DNA of 64,000 bases from Chitinophaga sancti (lineage in GTDB: Bacteria > Bacteroidota > Bacteroidia > Chitinophagales > Chitinophagaceae): contig NZ_CP139247.1 of the NCBI RefSeq assembly GCF_034087045.1, positions 1,116,001-1,180,000 on the forward strand, written 5' to 3'. Position 1 is the first letter of the stretch. The number at the start of each line of letters is the position of its first letter. The position numbers were made by a program, and so were the translations under genes. The notes beneath the pieces are model-generated. The model was not told the DNA's origin and made no database searches. It saw nothing but the letters and a program-made list of their open reading frames with translations. Positions 2,802 through 10,857 of the stretch are shown here, one piece after another.

Positions 2802-2955
2802 GCCCATAATCCGTTTCAGGGGCTGAAAGAGGGGGGTATTTTAAGATTCCTTTAACAGGTGGAAATGGTCAAAATTTCCATTAATAGGGGAAAATCGCCC
2901 TTCCACTCCTAAAAAATCTAAAAAACAGCGCCAGCACCACCGGCGCTGTAAAATC

Positions 2956-3309
2956 TTAGTACATTTTTAATAGGCTAGCGGCTTCCATGGCAGCCACCTT
3001 ATTAAATTCCCAGGCCAGTTTGCGGTGATTAACAGCATCTACAATTGTCCCAATCAGGCACAGACCACCTGTGAATAAGTACAAAATACCCATGCCAACC
3101 TGATTAAGAATGAAGCGGTGTATACCCGATACGCATACCAAGCCCAGCAGGCAGCAAATGAGGACTGTCTGAGGATCTTTGCGGCGGGATTGATACAGGG
3201 CAATAAACTTCCGTTTACTGTCCTCACTATAATCTTTGGTGAGTTCCTGCAACCACAGGATCTCTTCCTGGTCAACGCCAGGCAACATGGCAAAGGAAAA
3301 ATCGGTCAT
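2956..3309 (-). CDS. TM2-domain membrane protein
   Basis: 117 residues. The N-terminal ~45 residues are soluble and acidic/helical ('MLPGVDQEEILWLQELTKDYSEDSKRKFIALYQSRRKDP'). The TM2 module follows: a first membrane segment 'VLICCLLGLVCVSGIHRFILNQVGMGILYLFTGG' with the typical G-x-H-R-F turn, then a second segment 'LCLIGTIVDAV'. The TM2 fold is widespread with no assigned enzyme activity. Its ATG overlaps the stop of the upstream DUF2752 gene (ATGA at 3306-3309), so the two are probably translationally coupled; TM2 and DUF2752 genes are often neighbours in Bacteroidota. Confidence 0.88.
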   Translation of the reverse strand: MTDFSFAMLPGVDQEEILWLQELTKDYSEDSKRKFIALYQSRRKDPQTVLICCLLGLVCVSGIHRFILNQVGMGILYLFTGGLCLIGTIVDAVNHRKLAWEFNKVAAMEAASLLKMY

Positions 3310-3611
3310 GTATGATGGTTTTTAAGTCTCAACTGTGATCTTCCAAGCTGAAAAGTTCTATGCAACAATACGGCTACAGCAAAAGGGCTTAACACGTGAT
3401 GGTGGATCGCATTCTTCCAGTCCCCATGTAATAAATAATGAATGCCATGTCCCAACCCGCACCCCGGGCACCAGGTAAATCCGAGCCACTTAAACGGGCA
3501 GAGGCTAAAGTTGCCATCTGCTGCCGGATTCATCCAATACAGTAAGATTAACGCTATCGGCCATATGATCAATTCTTTGTTAATTCGTTGTACGTGGTGA
3601 ATAATTAACAT
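3306..3611 (-). CDS. DUF2752 small membrane protein
   Basis: 101 residues from the ATG at 3611 (a TTG 15 bases upstream is less likely). It contains the DUF2752 core 'CPFKWLGFTWCPGCGLGHGIHYLLHGDWKNAIHHHVLSPFA', with a C-P-x-C-G-L/T motif and His residues next to a membrane segment, and two to three hydrophobic stretches. Function unknown; the conserved Cys and His could bind a metal (inference). It is coupled to the TM2 gene by a 4-base overlap and divergent from the rimP operon. Confidence 0.85.
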   Translation of the reverse strand: MLIIHHVQRINKELIIWPIALILLYWMNPAADGNFSLCPFKWLGFTWCPGCGLGHGIHYLLHGDWKNAIHHHVLSPFAVAVLLHRTFQLGRSQLRLKNHHT

Positions 3612-3730
3612 ATAACAAATGGTCAAACGAAGTTATTAGATTTTGATGTAATCTGTGCAGAAAGCGGATTCCCGAATGGAAATTATTTCGTACAAGTTAA
3701 AGAAAATGCGCTTTGATCAAAATAAAATCC

Positions 3731-3738
3731 TAATTTTG
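3731..3738 (+). promoter_or_regulatory. -7 promoter box TAATTTTG of the rimP-nusA-infB operon
   Basis: Exact TAnnTTTG match. Transcription from it would start near 3743 and give a leader of about 50 bases, almost all of which is the hairpin at 3758-3790. Confidence 0.6.
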
Positions 3739-3757
3739 CATAGGAAAATGATTCTAA

Positions 3758-3790
3758 CGAAGGGGACTGAAAGTCCCCTTCGCGTTTTTT
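3758..3790 (+). terminator. Intrinsic-terminator-like hairpin in the rimP leader (possible attenuator)
   Basis: A perfect 11-bp stem, CGAAGGGGACT / AGTCCCCTTCG, closes a GAA loop and is followed by CG and six T. It ends two bases before the rimP ATG and lies downstream of the operon's own promoter box, so it sits inside the leader rather than ending an upstream gene (the neighbour is divergent). It has every feature of a Rho-independent terminator, and may attenuate the operon or hide the rimP start. Confidence 0.75.
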
Positions 3791-3792
3791 GT

Positions 3793-4257
3793 ATGGCAAA
3801 CGAACAAGTGATAACAAGCATCCGGGAGCATTTGGAAGAAATGCTTGCTGAATATCCGGAATATTTCGTGGTCGATATCAGGATTAAGCCCACTAATAAT
3901 GTAAAGCTATTTGTGGATGGTGATAATGGTGTACCTGTGGATAAGCTGGTCTCATTCAACCGTAATTTATACGCAAGGCTGGAAGCCGCGGCGTTGTTTC
4001 CTGACAACGATTTCTCTCTGGAAGTCTCATCCCCCGGACTGGACGAACCACTGAAACTGCACCGTCAATTCGTAAAGAATATAGGTAGAAAAGTAGCTAT
4101 AACCCTGCTGGATGGTTCCGAAAAGGAAGGCACCCTGCTGGCTGCTACTGAGGAAGCGTTGACGATAGAGGAGACGATCGGTAAGAAAAAAGAGAAAAAA
4201 ACTACTGACATAAACCTTAACGAAATCAAGCACACCAAAGTGTGCATCGTGTTTTAA
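3793..4257 (+). CDS. rimP: Ribosome maturation factor RimP
   Basis: 154 residues from the ATG at 3793 (MANEQVITSIREHLEEML); longer in-frame reading upstream crosses the leader hairpin and is rejected. RimP assists 30S subunit maturation. The N-terminal alpha/beta domain carries 'VVDIRIKPTNNVKLFVDGDNGV' and the conserved 'LEVSSPGLDEPL' with the S-P-G motif about residue 78; the C-terminal SH3-like domain follows ('FVKNIGRKVAITLLDGSEKEGTLL'). A Lys-rich loop 'GKKKEKKTTD' is near the end. It is the first gene of rimP-nusA-infB, 21 bases before nusA. Confidence 0.95.
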   Translation: MANEQVITSIREHLEEMLAEYPEYFVVDIRIKPTNNVKLFVDGDNGVPVDKLVSFNRNLYARLEAAALFPDNDFSLEVSSPGLDEPLKLHRQFVKNIGRKVAITLLDGSEKEGTLLAATEEALTIEETIGKKKEKKTTDINLNEIKHTKVCIVF

Positions 4258-4278
4258 AATATATAATATAAGCAAAAC

Positions 4279-5526
4279 ATGGCTAGTATTAATCTGATTG
4301 AGTCATTCACGGAGTTTAAAGAAGCGGAAAACATTGACCGTCCTACGTTAATGAAGGTGTTAGAAGATGTGTTTAAAACGCTTCTCCGTAAAAAGTATGG
4401 CTCTGATGAGAATTTTGACGTGATTGTAAATACTGAGAAAGGTGACCTGGAAATATTGCGCCGCCGTACCATTGTTAATGATGGTGAGGTAGAAGATGAT
4501 AATGCACAGATCGCTTATTCTGAAGCCATTTTAGTAGAACCGGATTACCAGGTAGGTGAGGATTTGTATGAGGAAGTTGAGATCATGGATTTTGGCCGCA
4601 GAGCCATCCTGGCTGCTAAGCAGACATTGTCAGCACGTATTGGTGACCTGAAAAAGAACATTTTAGTAAAGAAATATGCGGATAGGGTAGGTGAAATTGT
4701 AACAGGTGAAGTGTACCAGGTTTGGAAAAAAGAAGTTTTATTGCTTGATGATGAAAGGAATGAGTTAATTTTACCTAAATCTGAACAGATTCCTACCGAT
4801 TATTTCAAGAAAGGTGAAAATGTAAGGGCAGTAGTAAAAAAAGTGGAGATGAAGAACAACGCTCCGCTCATCATTCTCTCCCGCACCCATCCTACCTTCC
4901 TCGCTAAATTGCTGGAAATTGAAGTTCCGGAGATCTTTGACGGCCTGATTGTAATTAAGAAAATCGTTCGTGAGCCCGGAGAAAGAGCTAAAGTGGCAGT
5001 TGAATCTTATGACGACCGTATTGACCCTGTAGGCGCCTGTGTGGGTATGAAAGGAAGCCGTATCCATGGCATAGTACGTGAACTGCGAAACGAAAATATT
5101 GATATCATTAACTACACTGCGAATATTCAACTGTTGATCCAGCGTGCGTTAACACCTGCGCGTATCAGCCGCATGGAGATAGATAATGAAAATAAATACG
5201 CATCCGTTTTTTTAAAGGCAGATCAGGTATCCCTGGCTATCGGTAAGAAAGGGGTAAATATCAAATTGGCCTGTGAATTGACCGGATATGAAATAGATGT
5301 ATTCCGTGATGAGGAACAAGAGCAGGCTGAGTACGATATTGACCTTTCCGAATTCTCAGATGAGATCGAAGAATGGGTACTGGACGAACTCAAACGTATT
5401 GGTTGTGATACCGCCCGTAGCGTATTAGACCTGACTGTTGAAGAACTGGTACGTCGTTCTGATCTGGAAGAAGAAACTGTAAAGGACGTGAGAAGGATCC
5501 TGCAGGAAGAATTTGACAAAGAGTAA
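4279..5526 (+). CDS. nusA: Transcription termination/antitermination protein NusA
   Basis: 415 residues. NusA binds RNA polymerase and nascent RNA to control pausing, termination and antitermination. Order of domains: N-terminal polymerase-binding domain (1-130, 'LIESFTEFKEAENIDRPTLM'), S1 (about 135-200, 'GEIVTGEVYQVWKKEVLLL'), KH1 and KH2 (about 230-345, 'VGACVGMKGSRIHGIVREL' and 'VSLAIGKKGVNIKLA'), then one short acidic helical domain. There is no second acidic repeat of the E. coli type, which is usual outside Gammaproteobacteria. Since NusA stimulates hairpin-dependent termination, the terminator-like hairpin in front of rimP could give negative feedback (inference). Confidence 0.96.
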   Translation: MASINLIESFTEFKEAENIDRPTLMKVLEDVFKTLLRKKYGSDENFDVIVNTEKGDLEILRRRTIVNDGEVEDDNAQIAYSEAILVEPDYQVGEDLYEEVEIMDFGRRAILAAKQTLSARIGDLKKNILVKKYADRVGEIVTGEVYQVWKKEVLLLDDERNELILPKSEQIPTDYFKKGENVRAVVKKVEMKNNAPLIILSRTHPTFLAKLLEIEVPEIFDGLIVIKKIVREPGERAKVAVESYDDRIDPVGACVGMKGSRIHGIVRELRNENIDIINYTANIQLLIQRALTPARISRMEIDNENKYASVFLKADQVSLAIGKKGVNIKLACELTGYEIDVFRDEEQEQAEYDIDLSEFSDEIEEWVLDELKRIGCDTARSVLDLTVEELVRRSDLEEETVKDVRRILQEEFDKE

Positions 5527-5650: not shown

Positions 5651-8600
5651 ATGCCTGAAGTAACAAACAACACGCCGCGATTGCTGGCAGCAGCGAAAGA
5701 GTTTAATATTGGAAAGGAAACGTTGATCGACTTCCTTTCTAATAAAGGCTATGACATGGATGGATTCGGTTCACCCAATGCACGCCTGACCTCTCAGATG
5801 TACACAGCTTTGCAATCTGAATTCCAACAGGACAAGGCTAATAAGCGTAAAAGCGATCAGATAGCCCTGCCCAAAGGAAGCGTGTTAGATGCAATGAAGA
5901 AGAAGGAAAAAGAAGAAGCAGAAGCAGCCGCTAAGAAGAAAGAAGCAGCTGCCAAGGAAGAGCAGCCCACAGCCCCGGTAGCAGAGGTACCAAAACCAGA
6001 AGCTAAACCAGAACCTAAGCCTGAGCCTAAGGTGGAACAGCCTAATGCCGAGCTGAAGCCCGAACCAAAACCGGAGCCAAAGCCTGAGCCTAAACCAGAG
6101 CCTGTAAAGGCACCGGTTGCAGAAGTTCCGCCGGTTGTAGCAAAGGAGGAAGTTAAACAGCAGCAACCACCTGTAGCACCTGTCGCTGAAAAAGCACCGG
6201 AACCAAAGCCACAGCCGGAACCGCAACCTGAAAAGAAACCAGATACTCCAAGAATCAATGGTCCTAAAATCATGGGAACTATTGACCTCGAGGCTCTGAA
6301 CAGACATAATAATAAAAAACCTCAGCCTGCCGCAGCTAAAAAGCCAGAACAGGAAGAGAAACCTCCGGTTGCAAAACAACCGGAACCGGTAGCTAAGGCG
6401 CAAGAGCCTGTGCAGGCACCTCCTGTACAACAGCAAACTACTCCTCCGGTTCAAACTCCTGTTGCGACAGAAAAACCTGTCCAGCCAGAAGTAAAACCTA
6501 CTCCGGTGCAACAACAACCAATAGAAAAAGAAAAAATTACAGCGCCTGCTGCTGAAAAAACTGCTCCAAAAGCTGTAGAAGAGAAACAGGCGCCAGCTAC
6601 CGAAAAACCGGCAGCTGCTCAGGAAAAAACAAAAGAACCGGCTGCTAAAGAACAAATTAAGCCGGCCGCACAGCATATGGACGTAGTTGCAGCAGCAGAT
6701 ATCACATCTGAGCAAGATGACAACACCGGTTCTGCCGTAATTGAAAACATTCAGGCAGAAAAATTAACTGGTCCTAAAGTCATCGGTAAAATCGACCTCC
6801 CGGTTCATCAGGAAAGGAGAGATCGTGACAATAAGGGCAATAATAACTTCAACCGCGGTGGCAATAATAACAATGCCGAAAACAACCGTAAACGTAAGCG
6901 TATAATTGTCGAAAAGAAACCTGAGCCTATCCAGCCAGGCGATGAAGCCAACAAGGGTGGCGAAGGTACTCATGGCAACAACCAGGGTGGTAACCGTGGT
7001 GGCCAGGGTCACCAGGGCGGTAACCGCGATGGTGGTAACCGTAACTTCAACAGAGACAACCGCGGTGGTGGTGGTAACCGTGATCATAGTCACGGTGGCG
7101 GCCATAACAACAATAACAATAATAATAATAACAACGCTAACCGTCCGGCTGGTCCTAGCAGACCTCATACCGCACCTAACCGTGACAACCGCCCAGGTGG
7201 TGGTCCGGGTCATCAGGGTGGTAACCGTGGTCCGGGTGGTCCAGGTCATCAGGGTGGCAATCGCGGTCCAGGTGGTCAGGGGCATCAGGGTGGCAACCGT
7301 CCGGGTGGACAAGGTGGTGGTTACAACCGTACTGGTGGCGGCCAATATGGCAACCGCCCAGGTGGTAGCAGCTATAACAACCGTAGCGGAAAGCCAGAAG
7401 ATAAGGAGATCGACAAAAACGAAATCCAGAATAAGATCAAGGAAACCATGGCCAAAATGGGCGGTGGTGGTGGCCGAGGCAAAAACATCAAAGCCAAACA
7501 ACGCCGTGAGAAACGTCATGAGCTCGCTGAGCAAATGGCAAATCAGGCCGGCGGTGACCACAAACTGCAGGTTACTGAGTTCGTTTCTGTAAGCGAACTG
7601 GCCAACCTGATGGATGTAAGCTTTGCCGAGGTGATCTCAAAATGTATGGGACTGGGTATCATGGTATCCATCAACCAACGTCTGGATGCGGAAGTAATCG
7701 AACTGGTAGCAGGCGAATTTGGCTACGAAGTGGAATTCATCGGTGTAGATGAATCTGACGACATAGAAGAAGAAGAAATCCAGGATAATGAAGAAGATCT
7801 GGTACCAAGAGCACCAATCGTTACTATTATGGGTCACGTTGACCACGGTAAAACTTCATTACTTGACTATATCCGTAATGCAAACGTAGTATCCGGTGAG
7901 GCCGGCGGTATCACCCAGCACATTGGTGCTTATCAGGTGACTACTGCAACTGGCAAGCGCGTTACCTTCCTCGATACGCCTGGTCACGAAGCGTTTACAG
8001 CGATGCGTGCCCGTGGTGCCAAGGTGGCGGATATTGCAATCATCGTAATCGCTGCGGACGATGCTATCATGCCTCAAACACGTGAAGCAATCTCCCACTC
8101 ACAGGCTGCCGGTCTGCCAATGATCTTTGCGATCAACAAGATCGATAAGGAAGGCGCCAACCCGGAAAAAATCAAAGAACAACTGGCAGGTATGAACCTC
8201 CTGGTTGAAGATTGGGGTGGTAAATACCAAAGCCAGGAAATCTCAGCGAAAAGCGGTCTGAACATCGACGTATTATTGGAAAAGATCCTGCTCGAAGCAG
8301 AACTGCTGGAACTGAAAGCTAACCCGAACAGGGAAGGTTCCGGTAGCGTGATCGAAGCCTCTCTCGATAAAGGTCGTGGTTATGTAGCGACCCTGCTGGT
8401 ACAAAATGGTACCCTCCGCCAGGGCGATACCATCGCTTCCGGTTCTAACTTCGGTAAGATCAAAGCGATGTTCAACGAACGCGGTCTGCGTGTTGACTCC
8501 GCCGGACCATCTGCTCCTGTACAGGTGCTGGGTCTGAACGGTGCACCACAGGCCGGTGAGAAATTCAGAATGTATGAAAATGAATCTGAAGCGAAGGAAA

Positions 8601-9310
8601 CTGCAAACCGTCGTGCACAGATCATCCGCGAACAGGGTATCCGTACTAAGAAACATATCACACTGGATGAAATTGGCCGCCGTCTGGCACTGGGCAACTT
8701 CAAACAGCTGAACGTAATCATCAAGGGTGACTTCGATGGTTCTGTAGAAGCGCTGAGCGACTCCCTGCAGAAACTGTCTACCGAAGAAATCGTGGTGAGC
8801 GTAGTACACAAGGCTGTAGGTCAGATCACCGAATCCGACGTATTGCTGGCTACTGCATCCGATGCGATCATCCTCGGCTTCCAGGTTCGACCTTCTTCTC
8901 AGGCTAGCAAACTGGCAGAGAAAGAAAACATCGAAATCCGTACTTACTCCATCATTTATGACGCTATCGATGAACTGAAGAGCGCGATGGAAGGTATGCT
9001 GGAACCGAAAATCGAGAAGAAAGTGGTGGCAAACGTGGAAATCCGCGAAACCTATCGCTTCGACAAGGTTACCGTTGCAGGTTGCTTTGTACTGGATGGT
9101 AAGATCACACGTAACACCCGTGTCAACCTGGTACGTGAAGGTATCGTGATCTACACCGGCGAACTTCAATCACTGAAACGCTATAAGGACGATGTGAAGG
9201 AAGTTGCATCCAATATGGAGTGCGGTCTGAGTATCAAAAATTACAGCGACCTGAAAGTGGGCGATATCGTAGAAGGTTTCGAAGAAGTAGAAGTTAAACG
9301 TACGCTCTAA
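5651..9310 (+). CDS. infB: Translation initiation factor IF-2, with very long low-complexity N-terminus
   Basis: 1219 residues, against about 890 for E. coli IF-2. IF-2 is the GTPase that brings initiator tRNA to the 30S subunit. Residues 1-60 are an IF2_N-like domain ('[25 protein letters not shown]'). Residues about 75-380 are Lys/Pro/Glu/Ala/Gln-rich with PEPK repeats; about 390-590 are Gly/Asn/Arg/Gln-rich with GGNR and GPGHQ repeats and an Asn run. A second IF2_N-like domain follows. The GTPase begins about residue 722: G1 'GHVDHGKT', G3 'DTPGHEAF', G4 'NKID'. Domains II-IV follow to '[17 protein letters not shown]'. Third gene of its operon, 124 bases after nusA, ended by a terminator. 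Confidence 0.97.
5985..6115 (+). repeat. In-frame PEPK codon repeats inside infB
   Basis: Tandem six- and twelve-base units encode repeated Pro-Glu-Pro-Lys. Different codons are used between copies (cca/cct/ccg, gag/gaa), so the repeat is old at the protein level or selected there rather than a recent DNA slip. Confidence 0.7.
6950..7395 (+). repeat. Gly/Asn/Arg-rich repeats inside infB
   Basis: Degenerate units such as GGNRG, GPGHQ and GGNRPGG repeat through this stretch; an AAC/AAT run near 7108-7137 encodes about ten Asn. The composition resembles RGG-type RNA-binding low-complexity segments. Confidence 0.7.
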
Positions 9311-9350: not shown

Positions 9351-9386
9351 AAAAAAATAAGCCGCTCTTACGCGGCTTATTTTTTG
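9351..9386 (+). terminator. Terminator after infB
   Basis: AAAATAAGCCGC / GCGGCTTATTTT stem with loop TCTTA, an A run on the left and a T run on the right. It ends the rimP-nusA-infB operon. Confidence 0.85.
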
Positions 9387-10803: not shown

Positions 10804-10809
10804 TTACTG

Positions 10810-10839
10810 AAAAGGCGGATCAAATCGATCCGCCTTTTT
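10810..10839 (+). terminator. Terminator after the SurA-like gene
   Basis: AAAGGCGGATC / GATCCGCCTTT stem around a short AAATC loop, followed by T residues. Confidence 0.85.
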
Positions 10840-10857
10840 GTTTAGGTTTTTTCAACG

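Follow-up and report, generated by a model that had tools for sequence, protein, structure and literature searches.

The window, that is, the whole 64,000-nucleotide stretch of the Chitinophaga sancti genome that was analysed, contains the rimP-nusA-infB operon close to its beginning, preceded by a compact leader (Table 1). The first gene is recognized as rimP by its best NCBIfam model, NF002531, at 104 bits (5e-30), which is under the cut-off of 123 for this model, and by the Pfam domain PF02576 at 5.5e-8, above the cut-off. The NusA encoded by the second gene matches solved NusA chains over most of its length (best 1l2f, 1.1e-63). The IF-2 protein has 1219 aa, and its very long N-terminal half is of low complexity, first P/E/K-rich and then G/N/R-rich. 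The ORF upstream of the operon is divergent, so that transcription of the nearest neighbour does not enter the hairpin. Terminator-like hairpins are seen at 9352-9385, past infB, and at 10808-10840, past the next gene, which is peptidylprolyl isomerase-like; judging from the former, the operon may end at about 9385.

Table 1. Features of the rimP-nusA-infB leader and operon in the window
Feature	Position	Strand	Basis
Divergent upstream ORF	3306..3626	-	ORF list; no NCBIfam family
Candidate -33 element, TTTG	3712..3715	+	15 bases from the -7 box; putative assignment
-7 promoter box TAATTTTG, TAnnTTTG type	3731..3738	+	Sequence; class-wide enrichment
Predicted transcription start (+/- few bases)	3743	+	Predicted from the -7 box
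Terminator hairpin, 5' arm CGAAGGGGACT	3758..3768	+	Sequence, fold, covariation over 118 relatives
Hairpin loop, GAA	3769..3771	+	Sequence, fold
Terminator hairpin, 3' arm AGTCCCCTTCG	3772..3782	+	Sequence, fold, covariation
U-tract, T6	3785..3790	+	After CG spacer 3783-3784; followed by GT and ATG 3793-3795
rimP, first operon gene	3793..4257	+	NCBIfam RimP models and PF02576
nusA, second gene	4279..5526	+	TIGR01953, 371 bits (cut-off 253)
infB (IF-2), third gene	5651..9310	+	TIGR00487, 773 bits (cut-off 424)

Inspection of the sequence bears out, position by position, the original prediction of a promoter box, a perfect 11-bp hairpin and a run of six T placed just before the rimP ATG. All 11 pairs of the hairpin are perfect, 7 of them being G-C; the T-run begins two bases past the stem rather than immediately, and among 30 loci of the genus the third base past the stem is a T in only 10% and the fourth in 100%. 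The distance from the end of the stem to the ATG is 10 nt in the window and 10-12 nt in 28/30 genus loci, so that promoter box, hairpin, U-tract and start codon all fit inside some 65 bp. The 58-nt leader folds with -21.4 kcal/mol (z -4.2), and none of 200 shuffled sequences is equally stable. No antiterminator appeared in the folds of 58 and 128 nt, both of which retain the hairpin; in the alternative pairing of the short leader, its 5' GGAAAAU is joined to the U-tract, which is not part of the stem.

The box is of the TAnnTTTG type, which is described as the -7 box in Flavobacterium psychrophilum (PMC9723704). Thus, the sequence has the -7 box of a Bacteroidota housekeeping promoter ahead of the predicted transcript, and transcription would start a few bases downstream of it. 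At the place of the candidate -33 element, the genus consensus shows a T-rich, TTTTTG-like element, and the -7 box is followed by GGAAA in the consensus of both genus and family. In the window, GGAAA(A) lies about 5 nt past the -7 box (3739-3749) and can pair with the U-tract; it is probably located near the 5' end of the transcript, where a pull on the U-tract is conceivable.

When considered against the genome as a whole, the hairpin is exceptional by its place and not by its strength. In 464 kb of the genome there are 205 terminator-like sites, of which 64, the window hairpin itself included, score at least as high, and for 38% the dG is at or below its -18.5. Only two of these 205 sites, however, have a TAnnTTTG box at 5-32 nt ahead of the stem, and just one of them, the rimP hairpin, has an ORF start within 45 nt downstream. 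The stem word AAGGGGAC-N3-7-GTCCCCTT occurs at one place only in the 8.32-Mb genome. A covariance model of the hairpin alone is unspecific: three other genome sites score 34.4, 34.3 and 34.0 bits vs 33.1 bits for the window, and all three sit behind gene ends and are devoid of the TAnnTTTG box. Among the 28 matches listed, six sites other than the window and of similar score were inspected: none has such a box (0/6), and five of them lie behind gene ends, one (L445) being ambiguous; these six sites correspond to seven loci, as L446 and L448 are the two strands of one site. A regulon sharing the hairpin was considered and rejected, given the single occurrence of the stem word and the absence of the box at the similar-scoring sites.

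Another hairpin, GCACAC-4-GTGTGC, spans the final codons of rimP (window 4230-4245). In 30 genus loci the mean stem score at this place is 9.73 vs 8.25 (sd 1.67) upon synonymous resampling, and locus L002 retains the hairpin with altered pairs on both arms; the family (30 loci), the class (31) and the other classes (26) show no such excess. This hairpin could be relevant to rimP-nusA coupling.

The original prediction named the lack of stem conservation in related genomes as one finding that would speak against it. The rimP gene was located by Pfam PF02576 in 60/60 genus, 141/147 family, 135/149 class and 289/296 phylum genomes, the sets overlapping and the groups denoting kinship to the window. 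The 296 upstream regions compared are a non-random sample, which combines best-scoring matches (118 loci) and regions hand-picked from the listings, mostly one per genus (179), the phylum loci being drawn from the best-scoring matches listed; this sum includes L117, an incomplete locus with wrong coordinates that was left out of the 296 and is still contained in the 295 control windows and the 891 shuffles. In 281/296 sampled phylum loci, the 200 nt ahead of the RimP domain contain a terminator-like hairpin, a count that includes some hairpins located more than 100 nt before the domain (e.g. in L109 and L176), which may be terminators of another gene. By group, the hairpin is found in 30/30 genus, 65/66 family, 107/115 class and 79/85 other-class loci, as compared to 46/295 windows further upstream and 114/891 dinucleotide shuffles. 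Fifteen of the 296 loci have no hairpin by the criteria used; some of them show imperfect hairpins by eye, and L135, L164, L218 and L269 show none. The stem thus passes the comparison that the original prediction had set for it. At E up to 0.1, the model R1 matched 9/17 Bacteroidota loci that carry a name (4/17 being without the region), and by our own arithmetic 8 of these 9 matches fall at about the expected place. Together with the type of promoter, these matches point to Bacteroidota as the phylum sampled.

Although the stems were picked without requiring T, the 8 bases past the stem contain on average 6.07 T in the genus, 5.22 in the family, 4.10 in the class and 5.27 in other classes, vs 2.60, 1.57, 2.40 and 2.65, respectively, in the 8 bases before it. 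As only the 3' side is T-rich, and this in every group, the conserved unit is the hairpin together with a U-tract on the strand of the operon. This asymmetry bears on the possibility that the hairpin acts mainly on rimP translation or on mRNA stability, by limiting ribosome loading or by protecting the 5' end. Such a role would suit the position of the hairpin, about 11-35 nt before the start codon with the end of the stem 10 nt from the ATG; it would not, however, need a U-tract, and the distance from the stem to the next in-frame ATG varies among relatives from 5 to more than 40 nt while hairpin and box stay together in the class. We therefore regard a primary effect on translation or stability as improbable.

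In the class, hairpin and promoter box lie at a near-fixed spacing. The nearest TAnnTTTG box within 60 nt upstream of the stem was found in 195/202 class hairpin loci, with about 12 expected from shuffles; by group, the counts are 30/30 in the genus, 64/65 in the family and 101/107 in the class, with shuffle expectations of 1.9, 3.6 and 6.5, and in every one of the 195 loci the box-stem distance is 6-30 nt. Outside the class the box is seen in only 25/79 hairpin loci (3.6 expected), at 6-38 nt. The combination of box and hairpin marks 195/211 class loci of rimP vs 1/29 of tig and 0/29 of dnaA, one incomplete locus of each control gene being left out; when the box is disregarded, hairpins are found in 11/29 tig and 0/29 dnaA loci, so that a hairpin alone is not rare in front of genes. 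Because the box is conserved upstream of the hairpin, the hairpin lies inside the leader of the operon itself, as had been argued originally from the divergent neighbour in the window; the box, in 195/202 class loci, stands between the upstream ORF and the hairpin. If transcription starts 5 nt past the box and ends 7 nt past the stem, the terminated RNA has an estimated median length of 48 nt in the genus, 46 nt in the family and 47 nt in the class, and about 32 nt in other classes (24 loci with a box). In these 24 boxed loci (from L061-L090 and L239-L297) the hairpin may begin just a few bases past the predicted transcription start, so close that the terminator would make up nearly the whole short transcript.

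These data also bear on the reading of the hairpin as a terminator of the upstream transcription unit that adjoins rimP by chance. By crude ORF calls, the nearest upstream ORF is co-directional in 3/30 genus, 15/30 family, 15/30 class and 16/24 other-class loci, which for some relatives would accord with such a reading; the neighbour is divergent, however, in the window and in 27/30 genus loci (and mixed elsewhere), and a promoter box just before the hairpin in 195/202 class loci is not what a terminator of upstream transcription would call for. We consider this origin highly improbable. Hardly more credible is a leader peptide, or a RimP with an N-terminal extension, starting from ATG 3748, in which case the hairpin would be coding sequence. 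This ATG is in frame with rimP without a stop in between; within the 16 nt ahead of the stem, however, 12/30 genus loci have an in-frame ATG, 11 have one in another frame and 7 have none, while the hairpin is present in 30/30.

The stem itself shows compensatory changes. From the hairpins that remained after omission of those with fewer than 5 G-C pairs or longer than 34 nt (160 distinct), 120 were picked and 118 leaders of the genus, family and class were aligned, L109 and L176 being dropped since their hairpins are far upstream. The alignment contains 127 double-change cells vs a shuffled mean of 34.4, and 8/9 stem pairs have changed on both sides. Paired cells amount to 93.6% vs 85.0 in shuffles and 47.1-69.1% with slid partners, a share that is inflated by the selection of the aligned rows for having a hairpin, and related sequences can exceed shuffles; as evidence of covariation, the double changes weigh more than this share.

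Within the class, the stem has a prevailing polarity: the 5' arm carries GGG in 195/202 loci and CCC in one, as compared to 34 and 32, respectively, of the 205 terminator-like sites of the window genome. As a phylum-wide rule, this polarity fails: in other classes of the phylum the 5' arm has GGG in 19/79 and CCC in 43/79 loci, i.e. the arms are often reversed. The stems are specific to lineages, for example AAGGGAACG/CGTTCCCTT in much of the family and GAGGGGAC/GTCCCCTC in the class, with TCGCCC/GGGCGA, GTGAGCGTC/GGCACTCAC or AAAGTGGGG/CCCCACTTT found elsewhere. Being alike within a lineage and unlike between lineages, the stems suggest a reader that may be aware of their sequence.

An element of this kind has precedents. 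The rimP-leader was published in 2010 by Naville and Gautheret as the most ubiquitous attenuator, extending beyond enterics (PMC2965389), and most likely the window element is its Bacteroidota variant. Like the window, the rimP-leader of that report belongs to the same operon, consists of a short terminator hairpin followed by a T-run 4-130 nt before rimP, has a G-rich 5' arm and a C-rich 3' arm and, in its general form, involves no antiterminator. Correspondingly, the window element stands before rimP, the first gene of a rimP-nusA-infB operon, comprises a short hairpin and then a T-stretch, has the core GGG in the 5' arm and CCC in the 3' arm, ends 10 nt before the gene, and shows no antiterminator in a predicted leader of about 50 nt. 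The described stem is GGGc...gCCC (PMC2965389) and that of the window GGGGAC...GTCCCC, so the weaker c...g beside the core is missing from the window, where an A-U pair takes its place; some relatives in the class carry GGGGGC...GCCCCC. On account of the A-U pair, we class the window element not as an instance of the strict motif but as a variant of its lineage, with a mode of action like that of the rimP-leader. The main text of PMC2965389 does not contain the string 'Bacteroid'; its species lists are in the supplement, where members of the Bacteroidota may be found.

The Rfam family RF01770 ('Gammaprotebacteria rimP leader') is attached to the same gene and is a model of 102 positions. It recovers the positive controls, E. 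coli at 102 bits and Morganella at 82.8 bits, does not match window 2900-4600 at E up to 10, and yields nothing at the gathering level in Bacillus, Collinsella and three Bacteroidota loci (L341 ends short of rimP). A riboswitch or another Rfam element was rejected as well, as the four matches are at chance level (E 0.3-8.5) and all under the gathering score. A rimP leader had been described in enteric bacteria, as stated originally, but also beyond them (PMC2965389).

The original prediction further held that the Bacteroidota element would be an unrelated, convergent device, a claim that the wider distribution does not bear out. A NusA KH motif pattern provided 80 named loci, out of 120 stretches, of which 42 were evaluable, a RimP-like ORF being found before nusA; among the other 38, many of them from Bacteroidota, the nusA start was off the locus in 12, the upstream ORF had no crude RimP motif in 22 and no ORF was found in 4. 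A hairpin precedes the RimP-like ORF in 28/40 non-Bacteroidota and 2/2 Bacteroidota loci, as compared to 41/840 shuffles, and the arrangement is present in loci of Firmicutes, Actinomycetota, Alpha- and Gammaproteobacteria, Gemmatimonadota and other classes of the phylum. Alphaproteobacteria account for 8 of the 12 evaluable loci in which no hairpin was found. Several Firmicutes have AGAGTGGG..CCCACTCT-like stems. In E. coli K-12, rimP is preceded by two hairpins, of which the second carries T7 and is 24 nt away from the annotated start; this region is covered by RF01770. With these 28 loci, and with a rimP-leader published in 2010, the description of the element as unrelated and convergent finds no support; for so short a stem, common descent and repeated gain are indistinguishable.

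Taken together, the placement, covariation and association with a promoter make it very probable that the hairpin is a real attenuator of rimP-nusA-infB. Given a real attenuator, NusA would be its likely main input, and the complete proposal, a promoter-proximal attenuator with negative feedback by NusA, appears to us reasonably probable. The following cycle can be envisaged: RNA polymerase would start some 15 nt ahead of the hairpin; part of the complexes would stop at the U-tract and release an RNA of about 45-48 nt; and only the complexes that read through would make the rimP-nusA-infB mRNA. Because NusA of other bacteria is an aid to the folding of hairpins and to pausing at sites of this kind, more NusA would mean more termination and, hence, less NusA made, a feedback that would operate without a sensor RNA, a leader peptide or an antiterminator.

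Autoregulation of NusA in Bacillus subtilis is reportedly the subject of a study by Mondal et al. (2016). As described in PMC12288461, B. subtilis NusA regulates its own synthesis via NusA-stimulated termination in the nusA leader. That system is experimental and its leader is 180 nt long (PMC2965389), whereas in the window both the feedback and the leader of about 50 nt are predictions from sequence. The nearest counterpart in architecture is the leader of the rimP-nusA-infB operon of Streptococcus agalactiae (gbs0413-gbs0418), a member of the Firmicutes, for which PMC4448216 describes an intrinsic terminator with termination 31 nt past the start, a short RNA seen by RNA-seq and a proposed NusA feedback. 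NusA has also been proposed as the reader of the rimP-leader (PMC2965389) and as controlling the E. coli operon (PMC2965389, PMC6511841). With these precedents in B. subtilis, S. agalactiae and E. coli, NusA feedback in the window would seem a sound prediction. Within the phylum, PMC9723704 reports a structured 5' element, without an Rfam match, upstream of rimP in F. psychrophilum and other genera of Flavobacteriaceae, which probably is the same element as in the window; that report gives no link to a terminator or NusA, its main text not containing the string 'nusa'. The main text of the B. thetaiotaomicron transcriptome paper (PMC7366714) mentions neither rimP nor nusA, and among the open-licence papers that the searches listed, none was recognized as a further description of a rimP attenuator in Bacteroidota. 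What is new here, accordingly, is the phylum-wide survey, the covariation, the near-fixed spacing of promoter and terminator in the class, and the class-specific stems.

That the attenuator is real and its main input is something other than NusA, such as Csp-type cold-shock chaperones melting the hairpin, NusG or RimP, is a doubtful though tangible alternative. Transcription of the whole operon in E. coli is reported to increase after cold stress, with a possible shift in promoter and terminator use, in a paper that also cites work on CspA-family proteins as antiterminators (PMC6511841); of 1400 terminators in B. subtilis, 88% are described as facilitated by NusG, alone or with NusA (PMC8060035); and the class-specific stem, with its GGG 5' arm in 195/202 loci, would suit a dedicated RNA-binding reader. 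Against these inputs stand the location of the nusA gene in the controlled operon and the fact that NusA is, in the literature consulted, the one factor reported as acting at this leader, namely in B. subtilis (PMC12288461). The B. subtilis terminators that need both NusA and NusG are reported to have weaker hairpins (PMC8060035); as a sign of NusA dependence, a weak hairpin had to be rejected for the window, where the strength is ordinary (dG -18.5). As the terminators on which NusA acts are many, it cannot be taken for granted that the rimP hairpin gives a useful dose response.

A more elaborate version of NusA control, which we put forward tentatively and consider rather unlikely, is that the class has fused promoter and terminator into one unit, such that readthrough senses NusA loading during the exchange of sigma for NusA, and that the stem has co-evolved with NusA or RimP. 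Termination at about 45 nt from the start would then occur about as early as the hairpin permits, and perhaps at some 32 nt in the sister classes. Readthrough would gauge the speed of NusA loading on the freshly escaped polymerase and would thereby serve as a sensor of NusA concentration without a sensor RNA. The stems are nearly constant within a class and differ, often with reversed arms, from one class to another; they would owe this to co-evolution with the RNA-binding domains that NusA (or RimP) has in the respective lineage.

If the proposed feedback by NusA is true, the autogenous control that NusA exerts through an early terminator would span Bacteroidota, Firmicutes and Proteobacteria and would rank among the attenuation systems of widest occurrence. 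In its compact form, the window element would represent a minimal testable unit, and the class-specific stems would provide a natural experiment on whether NusA reads the sequence of a terminator. For the Bacteroidota themselves, the element would bear on how the levels of nusA and infB are set in the phylum.
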